From Shewanella sp. SNU WT4 (GTDB lineage Bacteria; Pseudomonadota; Gammaproteobacteria; Enterobacterales; Shewanellaceae): a DNA stretch of 64,000 nt. Under the pieces are notes generated by a model, which did not search any database, was not told where the DNA came from, and was given only the letters and a program-made list of their open reading frames with translations. Within the stretch, counting starts at the first letter, position 1, and each line of letters starts with the position of its first letter. The position numbers and the translations under genes were made by a program. Where the stretch lies: NCBI RefSeq assembly GCF_006494715.1, contig NZ_CP041151.1, positions 2,232,001 to 2,296,000 on the forward strand, read 5' to 3'. Shown here piece after piece: positions 11,186-15,756 of this stretch.

Positions 11186-12241
11186 ATGCCACTGAATGCT
11201 ATTGCCAATAATAATGATAATGCGACCACACTGTTGCGACAGGTGATACCGCAAATGACAAGTCTCAGCATTCCAATTACCCCAAGAAATTATGCGGTTT
11301 GGTATGAATATTTTTCTGGTAAAAACCGAGAGCTAATTACTGCGGTGAATCATTATGTCAATAATGACCTCACTTTTACCGAAGAGATTAATAACAGACT
11401 GTTTCAGCAGTTTATTGAAGAACAGCCCACCGACGCTTTAGTCAAAACCCATGAAGTCACCGAGCAAATCATCACGGCCTTGATGCAGTCCATCACTAAG
11501 GCCTATTCGGGCAATCGTCATTTCGGTCAGGTGCTGACTAAATACAGCGAAAAAATGCAAGCGGCTGCCTCAGTCGAGTCACTCAATGACATGGTCACTG
11601 AGCTGTTAGGCCATGTCAATGAAGTCGTGACTGCCAATGCTACTTTGCAGGCCAATTTGACAGAGATGCGTGAGGAAGTGTCGTCACTCAAATCAGAAAT
11701 GAGCCACTTAGAACAAGCGAGCCTCACCGATGCATTAACCTCCTTACATAATCGCCGCGCCCTTGAAAGCCATATGGCTATGTGCCTAAATAATCATAAA
11801 AAGCATGGCGTTAATTTCTCTATGCTAGTCATAGATGTGGATTTTTTTAAGAAAATCAACGACAGTCATGGTCATCAAGTGGGCGATAAGGTGTTGTCTT
11901 ATATTGCAAAAATGCTTAAGTCAGCCGTTAGGGGCGAGGATTTTGTTAGCCGCTTTGGCGGTGAAGAATTTGCGGTTATCTTGGCCAATACCGATTATAA
12001 ATCGGCGTTAATTGTGGCTGAAAGTTTGTGTCAACGTATCAGCGCCAAAGCCTTAAGTGTCGGTAAAGATAGGGAATCTATCGGACATGTGACTGTGTCT
12101 ATCGGCGTATCTCAAGCTGATATTAGCGATGATAACGACGCCTGTTTTGCCCGCGCCGATCAAGCCCTCTATCAAGCCAAGCATTCCGGTCGCAATTGCG
12201 TAAGAGGCGAAATGAAGTGGTCAAGTTTTATTGGCCACTAA
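11186..12241 (+). CDS. GGDEF diguanylate cyclase with IS-derived C-terminal tail
   Basis: Makes cyclic di-GMP. The N-terminal 165 residues are a helical region typical of soluble diguanylate cyclases, ending in a probable coiled coil. The GGDEF domain (about residues 175-340) has the active site RFGGEEF and an RxxD inhibitory site (RGED) five residues before it. The best start is the ATG at 11186, with AGGA seven bases upstream; a TTG two codons earlier is possible. The last codons, from about 12212 to the TAA at 12239-12241, lie inside the IS3 inverted repeat. The native C terminus was therefore replaced by KWSSFIGH. The catalytic core is complete, so it is probably active. Confidence 0.85.
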
Positions 12242-12699
12242 CTTAGAATCTAATGCATATCTTTGCTCAGATTCATTTGGTGTTAGACCTGCATTGTAAT
12301 GATGTGGCCTAACGTTGTTGTAATATCTAATGATGTAATCATTGATGTGATGCTTTGCTTCAATAAAGCTGCGGTATCCTGCAGTTGGTATCCATTCCAC
12401 CTTAAGACTTCTGAAAAATCGCTCCATTGGGGCGTTATCCCAGCAATTTCCACGTCGAGATAAGCTTTGTGTTATGCGATAGCGCCATAAGCGCTGTCGG
12501 TATTTTCGGCTTGTATAATGGCTACCTTGATCGCTATGGAATATCAATCCTTGCGGGCGACCACGGCACTCATACGCCATATCCAGCGCCTTTAATGTCA
12601 ATGTGGTATCCGGTGAATACGACATAGCCCAGCCGATAACCTTGCGGCCAAATAAATCTAAAACAACTGCCAAGTAGGCCCAACGGTTGCCAGTCCAAA
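12221..12699 (-). CDS. IS3 transposase orfB, 3' exon
   Basis: C-terminal two thirds of the orfB DDE integrase-fold transposase. It reads [20 protein letters not shown], then FHSDQGSHY (second catalytic Asp) and [12 protein letters not shown] (catalytic Glu), and ends in YNNVRPH and a short tail that runs into the inverted repeat. The first catalytic Asp (CGDVTY) is on the other side of the intron at about 14980. Joining 12699 to 14977 gives DVTY-V-WTGN, the expected family sequence with the frame kept. The gene is therefore expressible only after intron splicing. No internal stop is present. Confidence 0.9.
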
Positions 12700-12750
12700 G
12701 TAGAGTAAGAGGCAGAGCGTAGTCGAACTATTTCTCTGCTTCTCCTCTCC

Positions 12751-12784
12751 GAACCGTACGTGCACCTTTCAGCGCATACGGCTC
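12751..12784 (-). ncRNA. Group II intron domain V
   Basis: The 34-base catalytic hairpin begins GAGCCGUAUGCG and ends CACGUACGGUUC on the minus strand, with a GAAA tetraloop and the catalytic AGC triad in the lower stem. This is the most conserved part of group II ribozymes and fits the consensus at nearly all positions. It lies 5 bases after the reverse transcriptase stop. Confidence 0.95.
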
Positions 12785-12789
12785 TCCGC

Positions 12790-14313: not shown

Positions 14314-14976
14314 AGGTCTTCACTTCATTAAGGTCAGGTAATTTGCTGACGCAAATCAATTAAACTGTGTCCCTTCGCCATGTAATGGGCTTTCCCCATC
14401 TCAGACTACTACGAACACTCCGCCAGCTTGTTTGTCATCAGGGTCATGCTCCCTTAGCATTCAAAACAAACCTTCCCCGGTTTATCTACCTGAACTCAAA
14501 CATATTGGGGTGGATGCCGATCGCAGTCTTTGACCTTATCGTACTGTAAGGTGATGATGCTTAAACGCAGAATTGTGATTTAACGTTTATCCATTAATAA
14601 GTACATATTTATTACTCATTAATTCGGCAATAGTGCCCATACGTTTAGCACTATTGCAGCACCATATTGCCTGTTAATTCGTGTAGGCAATGGCGACGTT
14701 TCAGCCCATAGATGCGGGTTAACCGGTTCATGTTCTTCATCCGTCCAATACTTAGTCTAGAGGAGCATCTTGGCTTAACGAATTCGCCTCACTCCCCGTT
14801 GTCAGCGAGTTACATCACCTTATCAGCATACGATAAGTCACTGCCGCTCAGACTCAACTATCTGCACAACCAGATAGTGCCATAAACAATGTAGCTCCTG
14901 CCGTAGTGTTCATGTATTTCAGATAGACTCGTGGTTCGTTAAAGCATTCCATGCTAGTGCTGAACTCCGGGCATAC

Positions 14977-15265
14977 CGTAGGTTACATCGCCACACCAAA
15001 CCGTATTTGGCTCAACAACATCAAATTGTCTATTGAGTAAATTGGGGATGTCTGTGTATTCATTTCCTGATTTTTTATAGCGATGCTGTGGCTGCTGGCA
15101 ACTCACCAGTCCTAACTTTTTCATCAAGCGGCCTGCTCGATAGCGACTTAATTGCACATCTTGCGTTGTCGCTATGGTTGCAATAGTTCTGGCTCCTGCA
15201 GAGCCTTCACTTTGCTCGTGTATATCCTTAACCTTTGTTTCCAAGAGAACTTGTGCTGTGTTCAT
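14977..15265 (-). CDS. IS3 transposase orfB, 5' exon
   Basis: N-terminal part of orfB, from an internal ATG at 15265; in practice it is read as a fusion from orfA after frameshifting at 15415-15421. The -1 frame upstream is open and reads the conserved linker with [17 protein letters not shown]. The exon contains the family motif [14 protein letters not shown] and [11 protein letters not shown] with the first catalytic Asp, and stops at the intron boundary at 14977. In unspliced RNA the frame would run a few codons into the intron and end at a stop, giving an inactive fragment. Confidence 0.88.
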
Positions 15266-15369
15266 TGTTCTATCGCGCTTAAGCCAGTAACGATAACTGC
15301 TACGGTGAACTCCAAATACATCACATGAAACTGAGATAGGATAACGCCCTGCTTGATGGATTTTCTCGA

Positions 15370-15681
15370 TTATCGAGAACTGTTCAGCGAGTCCGACATC
15401 AAGAGAGCGGTAGCCTTTTTTAATATGTCTTTTTCCATTTCAATGCGCGCGATTTTTTTCTTTAGCTCACGAATTTCAATCTGCTCAGATGTCATTGGCG
15501 AGGCATTGGGAGCTATGCCTCGACGCTCAAGTTTTAACTGTGACACCCACTTACTGACAGTTGATTTGCCAACGCCCATGGCTTTTGCTGCTTCCTCTTG
15601 TGTATAACCTTGATCAAGCACAAGCTGTGCGGTTTCAAGCTTAATTGCAGCAGTATATGTTGCTCGTGTTTTATTCGTCAT
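15370..15681 (-). CDS. IS3 transposase orfA
   Basis: About 103 residues from the ATG at 15681 ([10 protein letters not shown]); an upstream ATG at 15711 adds ten residues but is less likely. A helix-turn-helix ([21 protein letters not shown]) binds the element ends. The heptad region [20 protein letters not shown] is the leucine zipper for multimerisation. The product alone normally acts as a regulator, and the frameshifted OrfAB is the transposase. Complete and not interrupted by the intron. Confidence 0.9.
15415..15421 (-). promoter_or_regulatory. -1 programmed frameshift heptamer A AAA AAG
   Basis: On the minus strand the orfA codons read TTA AAA AAG, the A6G slippery sequence typical of IS3-family elements. 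Shifting back one base continues as [15 protein letters not shown] in the orfB frame with no stop, through to the conserved orfB start region. Confidence 0.85.
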
Positions 15682-15756
15682 TTTGCCACCCAATGTATAC
15701 GCCCTAAGCATAATATTTGTTTCTTAATGGATGGCCAAATTAACTATGCCACTTCA

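Follow-up and report, generated by a model that had tools for sequence, protein, structure and literature searches.

A group II intron behind the D-V-T-Y codons of an IS3-family transposase gene in Shewanella sp. SNU WT4, and its relatives at the same site

The window, which is the whole stretch of 64,000 nucleotides of Shewanella sp. SNU WT4 DNA analysed here, contains a group II intron inside the orfB gene of an IS3-family insertion sequence (IS). We consider it highly probable that this intron is an En-minus, E.c.I4-like element specialised for DDE transposase genes, and that the window copy belongs to a decaying branch. Sequence comparison established the place and the ends of the intron, its relatives, the recurrence of insertion at the same codon and the covariation of epsilon with epsilon', within the EBS1 hairpin, and of exon position -1 with EBS1.

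The intron and its encoded protein are located as follows.
12700..14976, minus strand: group II intron, 2277 nt, delimited by the domain V match, the other copies in this genome and an intron-free copy of the IS
12700..12786, minus strand: intron domains V and VI (Rfam RF00029)
12790..14313, minus strand: intron-encoded reverse transcriptase/maturase, 507 aa, with the TTG start as listed

The insertion point in orfB is one base past the DVTY codons (14977/12699). Exon 1 ends at 14977 with ...GATGTAACCTACG, exon 2 starts at 12699 with TTTGGACTGG, and the joined exons read in frame through DVTYVWTGNRW. An earlier note on this DNA had claimed a group II intron in an IS3-type orfB with this exact place and frame, and all of this was borne out, on the minus strand. 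The covariance model that it suggested as a check yielded the same 3' end: the RF00029 match runs from 12786 to 12700 with 68.4 bits (gathering threshold, 40), and its end at 12700 agrees with the end defined by the exons. The intron ends in CTAC, in keeping with the AY rule. The 507-aa protein displayed RVT_1 and GIIM domains and a YADD motif, and scored 341.4 compared to a cut-off of 300 for group II reverse transcriptases/maturases; no endonuclease domain was present among its Pfam and NCBIfam matches. A retron reverse transcriptase or a chance ORF was ruled out, as TIGR04416 was over its cut-off and NF038233 reached 59 bits compared to the 235 needed. By these sequence matches, the insert in the window is a group II intron with a reverse transcriptase/maturase protein.

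The element that houses the intron, designated ISa, has the following parts.
12213..15756, minus strand: ISa, IS3-type element with the intron; identity between the window copy (L001) and a second copy (L002) stops at both ends
15370..15711, minus strand: orfA of ISa, 113 aa, HTH_Tnp_1, from the ORF list and a domain search
15415..15421, minus strand: A6G run between orfA and orfB, putative -1 frameshift site
14977..15421, minus strand: orfB exon 1, start approximate, final codons GDVTY plus one base
14989-14987, minus strand: codon of the first catalytic Asp
12221..12699, minus strand: orfB exon 2; by motif, it contains two residues of the DDE triad, the second Asp near 12532 and the Glu near 12424

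The termini of ISa are TGAAGTGG...CCACTTCA, and its length minus the intron is 1267 bp. The transposase model NF033516 scored 175.8 bits on exon 2 (cut-off 160) with the DDE core present, and by this sequence match ISa is a member of the IS3 family. Presumably the A6G run at 15415..15421 is the -1 frameshift site from orfA to orfB, and from the familiar motif we take the first catalytic Asp to lie in exon 1 and the second Asp and the Glu in exon 2. Unspliced orfB corresponds to the ORF at 15265-14954, which stops 7 residues inside the intron; judged from its reading frame, ISa likely needs splicing of the intron for a full transposase. A short target-site duplication is usual for the IS3 family without being family-defining. 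No such duplication was seen around ISa in four of four copies (L001, L002, L006 and L050), for which a rearrangement could be the cause. At the other side of the IS border, a plus-strand GGDEF-domain gene (window 11180-12241) overruns about nine codons into the IS end, so that its C-terminus is IS-derived.

Intron-free ISa was searched with orfB exon 2 in a genus set of 129 genomes. One copy was found in genome G078 (L050), in which GATGTAACCTACG/TTTGGACTGGCAACC are contiguous, so that this homologue matches without a gap the exon junction that had been predicted for it. Its identity to ISa is 98.6% in exon 2 and 97-98% in exon 1, and about 75 nt are missing elsewhere in exon 1. With the intron as a query in the genus search, the sole match in G078 was 43 nt of the domain V region. 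By a simple pattern, an uninterrupted D-V-T-Y junction was read in 21 of 29 loci (L050-L078); the remaining eight did not match the pattern, and among these L077 adjoins an intron.

The genome of strain SNU WT4 matches the intron at seven places, with five full copies and two partial ones. The other four full copies (L002-L005) differ from the window copy by only 2-6 bases of 2277 (99.7-99.9% identity). ISa bears the intron at L001 (the window), L002 and L006, and a second type, ISb (DNA identity to ISa about 70%), bears it at the same codon at L003, L004 and L005. A third IS3 type, of which only the 3' exon is known, contains the 3' part of the intron at L007, broken by nested IS. All three ISa and all three ISb copies found with ISa queries carry the intron or a remnant, and a search of this genome with the ISa exons gave no ISa or ISb free of it; thus, no uninterrupted copy was found to supply transposase. 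Target duplications of 3 bp flank two of the ISb copies, L004 (GAT) and L005 (CCT). At L006 (G000:C1:2184177-2188249), the intron breaks off after nt 1073 and runs directly into ISa exon 2, the two sharing 4 nt at the joint, which indicates an internal deletion.

Relatives were obtained by scanning one genome per species with peptide words of this intron-encoded protein (IEP). The scan gave 143 loci, of which the best 80 were kept; as the best matches to the words of this IEP, they are a non-random sample. After 15 of the 80 loci without both ends were left out, 65 relatives were counted. Among these (best 80 of 143), the intron directly follows codons for D-x-[TSC]-[YFW] in 57 of 65, as judged on the 13 nt before the junction, several of the hosts having stops or being shortened. 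Exceptions with a transposase-like exon 2 were DVTD (twice), DIPY and DITE; those without one were DITC (L124) and a stop-bearing frame (L143), and the remaining two, L108 and L127, have doubtful ends. Among the best 80 of 143, the nearest introns with a species name belong to Shewanella (L079, L082, L085 and L133, with 97-99% protein identity).

The exon-2 proteins of 19 hosts from these loci, and that of the third IS of this genome, were assigned to IS families. IS3 was the best family for 19 of the 20, with some scores under the curated cut-off because only half of the protein was given. The host of L089 was typed as IS6 (125.3 compared to a cut-off of 125). The host comparison used the 54 introns with a host exon 2 of at least 90 residues. 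Introns at least 90% identical formed 68 pairs, and 61 of these had alignable hosts, with a median host identity of 44%; host identity was below 60% aa in 40 of the 61. Across species, introns 95-99% alike were found in hosts with as little as 28-44% aa identity, and other such pairs have alike hosts. In L105/L106 the introns are 99.3% and the hosts 33% identical, and in L102/L103 the values are 97.4% and 31%.

Within Rhizobium sp. SL86, the introns of L122 and L123, about 36 kb apart on one contig, are 100% identical in transposases of 55% identity, which again clearly points to a recent change of host.

Like introns in such unlike hosts show that the intron changes hosts often. Furthermore, the near-identical introns in IS types about 70% alike, together with the cross-species pairs, show that the intron moves by itself. 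A rival explanation is that the intron is a mere passenger of the IS and that its copies in this genome are alike through homogenising recombination. Such homogenisation is possible among copies of one genome, and L004 and L005 do show marks of IS transposition, but introns 95-99% alike in very different hosts of different species strongly disfavour a passenger, and we regard this explanation as very improbable. In the earlier note, the IS had been proposed to carry the intron to new sites. The marks at L004 and L005 agree with this part, whereas near-identical introns in unlike hosts show movement of the intron's own, so the proposal was incomplete.

The state of the window copy was compared to its relatives at three places.
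14973..14974, minus strand: epsilon (intron nt 3-4), with A at nt 3 in the window copy and G in L002-L005
14809..14810, minus strand: epsilon', intron nt 167-168, from the alignment of 63 rows
13411..13413, minus strand: codon 301, which reads TGT (Cys) in the window copy and CGT (Arg) in L002-L005

We take nt 3-4 and nt 167-168 to be epsilon and epsilon', respectively. The 5' end of the window copy is GUAUG, one base off GUGYG, and L002-L005 have GUGUG. The 65 relatives have GTGCG (31), GTGTG (25) or GTACG (9), under a pattern that admitted only G or A at nt 3 and C or T at nt 4. The 5' alignment of 63 rows consisted of 61 relatives and two copies from this genome, with L108, L124, L127 and L143 dropped. 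In it, nt 4 and nt 167 are paired in 63 of 63 rows (C-G 36, T-A 27), and nt 3 and nt 168 in 62 of 63 (G-C 55, A-T 7), the single A-C being the window copy. L124 and L143, read by eye outside this alignment, have A3 with U at epsilon'. The A3 allele is also present in L006; therefore, a reading error is unlikely, and A3 was copied at least once. Residue 301 is Arg in 78 of 80 relatives, with one Lys and one Cys.

Because G3A breaks the epsilon-epsilon' pair and R301C affects a conserved residue of the RT domain, the window copy is probably crippled. Both its splicing and its protein are probably impaired by these two changes; with the A3-C168 mismatch, splicing may be reduced rather than abolished. 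By its sequence, L002 looks like the healthy form. Domain V had been called perfect and the maturase intact; this leaves aside the GUAUG 5' end and Cys301, which make "intact" doubtful. It is unlikely that the window copy is fully working and that IS and intron transpose as a unit after splicing. The complete ORF, the YADD motif, a domain V above threshold and the intron-bearing ISb copies L004 and L005 with their 3-bp duplications would fit a working copy, but G3A stands uncompensated, uniquely among the 63 aligned copies, and R301C departs from the Arg of 78 of 80 relatives.

The elements of target recognition are located as follows.
14977..14989, minus strand: homing site, with IBS2 (-13..-9, GATGT) and IBS1 (-6..-1, CCTACG)
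14695..14699, minus strand: EBS2, intron nt 278-282, ACGUC
14638..14643, minus strand: EBS1, intron nt 334-339, CGUAUG
14627..14657, minus strand: hairpin with EBS1 in its loop, from pair compensation

EBS-IBS pairing with the exon, another check that had been suggested, was found in the window-type intron, with EBS1 at nt 334-339 and EBS2 at nt 278-282. The six inner pairs of the hairpin (325-345 to 330-340) form in 52/59 to 59/63 rows with many pair types, and pair 328-342 (59/63) occurs as G-C, C-G, A-T and T-A. The five outer pairs are weak (26/63 to 30/42), and single-sequence folds leave EBS1 open (at least five of six bases) in only 27 of 63. The pairing of each intron with its own target has a mean of 9.3 of 11, and exon shifts of 1-6 nt lower this to 2.2-5.2. 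Since the D-x-T-Y exon positions are conserved for protein reasons, pairing at invariant positions proves little alone. Exon position -1 and nt 334 are paired in 57% compared to 40% in shuffles, and 1 of 1000 shuffles reaches this value, which is not a probability because the shuffles ignore relatedness. Covariation was not above chance for -10 with nt 279 (62/1000 shuffles) and -5 with nt 338 (303/1000).

As a candidate for EBS1, nt 368-373 pairs at 0.728 compared to 0.724 for nt 334-339, yet 39/1000 shuffles reach its value at -1 compared to 1/1000. It was rejected in favour of nt 334-339, which has the compensated hairpin around it and the stronger covariation with -1. An A at nt 333 (60 of 63 rows) and a T at +1 (61 of 63) fit either a delta or an EBS3 contact.

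The guides follow the codon frame of the target. A G stands at nt 280 in 62 of 63 rows, opposite the wobble base of the Asp codon (T in 32 targets, C in 31), and at nt 335 in 54 of 63, opposite the wobble base of the Tyr codon (T in 32, C in 29, G in 2); thus, synonymous codons still pair. The third base of the V/I/F codon lies in the gap between the two pairings, and at the third base of the Thr codon pairing with the guide was not above chance. In L089, with its IS6 host, the target GATGA and the EBS2 UCAUC match fully, with bases altered on both sides. Its EBS1 pairs badly as aligned; this row and that of L154 seem to be out of register at EBS1. For the wider suggestion that the whole clade targets a protein motif and not one particular DNA sequence, with guides in the D-x-T-Y codon frame and, via a changed EBS2, entry into IS6, we see an even balance. 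A substantial possibility, though short of even, is that the G facing the wobble bases of Asp and Tyr was inherited without selection for codon tolerance, its fit being a by-product of the conserved protein motif. These introns have a single common ancestor, and G280 is nearly fixed with few independent changes, as such inheritance would predict. However, the target third bases are split about evenly, G was kept in 62/63 and 54/63 where A would pair with half of the targets, and nt 334, facing -1, varies freely.

The guide of L002 was also compared to sites in its own genome. ISa and ISb pair at 10 of 11 positions. Among the uninterrupted IS3 types, one present in five copies reaches 9, another in seven copies reaches 8, the single copy L168 reaches 8 as counted by hand, and a type without D-x-T-Y in three copies reaches 9 with A at +1. 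This contrast of free and occupied sites comprises six IS types in all, with L184 and L185 as one site. In L003, nt 279 inside EBS2 is changed, so that it pairs at 9 only. An exact-pattern search for free sites in this genome gave 0, the pattern being too strict.

For this transposase-specialised intron, the following course is proposed. The spliced lariat and its protein would reverse-splice into GAYNTNACNTAYN/T, in the codons around the first catalytic Asp, with EBS2 pairing with -13..-9 and EBS1 with -6..-1 during insertion. The primer would be taken from the replication fork, as described for En-minus introns in the available part of PMC4424553. With a guide G at the third positions of Asp and Tyr, a variable base at Thr and none at V/I/F, one guide would fit most D-x-T-Y codings, and the intron could therefore jump between distant transposases. 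The host IS would then carry the intron to new DNA sites, its full transposase needing splicing. The window copy would be decaying, as R301C alters a conserved RT-domain residue and nt 3, after G3A, no longer forms its epsilon-epsilon' pair.

Read in this manner, the list of introns in IS elements becomes a testable rule of host choice, with codon-frame guides and G at the wobble positions. With copies of both the A3 and the G3 form, this genome offers a natural pair for the splicing dependence of IS spread. A match to the related E. coli intron was present in 2655 of 5426 complete E. coli genomes, with at least 80% coverage at one place in 1862. Given that this intron is so common, its choice and restraint of IS elements bear on IS activity in well-studied bacteria.

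Among known systems, the closest is E.c.I4, which was published in 2012 at specific positions of IS629, IS911, ISEc16 and ISEc31 (PMC3522654, available part). The E. coli intron at L159 sits in ISEc31, and from this host and a 99.6% match to the K-12-type ykfC fragment we infer that L159 is E.c.I4. In strain 6FA, this ykfC-bearing fragment (99.6%) begins at 272191, one base past the end of the IS911A fragment in MG1655 coordinates. Its would-be intron nt 390-464 coincide with the small RNA annotated as EyeA (L162 6581-6655; E. coli K-12 272580-272654), which may thus derive from group II intron RNA. L159 and the window intron share the site after D-[VI]-T-Y in IS3-type transposases, the EBS2 ACGUC and the EBS1 G facing Tyr, and their IEPs are 71% identical. 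They differ in nucleotide sequence (69% identity), in their IS hosts and in the E. coli target, GATATTACGTATA. E.c.I4 is a class A intron, with three nearly identical class members then known, according to the consulted portion of PMC3552965. The window intron would accordingly be a class A member, as suggested by the 71% IEP identity to the presumed E.c.I4 and the label in that portion. Class D, the class of RmInt1, was ruled out by the same close match, E.c.I4 being class A there.

RmInt1 in ISRm2011-2 of Sinorhizobium meliloti likewise lies in a transposase gene and requires splicing for a full transposase, but it is of class D and in a different host IS; the need of the IS for intron splicing is stated in the available text of PMC4238363. 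In the part of PMC5072309 at hand, Ll.LtrB and Ef.PcfG similarly invade mobility genes of different elements at a conserved catalytic motif, but the motif is the relaxase histidine motif and not a DDE transposase. IStrons, in the accessible part of PMC4227781, are also a partnership of intron and IS, but there a group I intron is joined to the IS, whereas the window has a group II intron homing into a gene. Codon-degenerate guides of such introns and this IS/intron pair were both absent from the titles and abstract openings searched, a collection mostly without subscription papers. The earlier suggestion that the nested pair may not be described thus stands, within these searches, for this particular pair, but E.c.I4 was already published in the hosts named in the part of PMC3522654 cited above, and the dependence of an IS on splicing was already stated for RmInt1 in that of PMC4238363. 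The window intron is a new member of the E.c.I4-type introns already described in several IS3-type elements.
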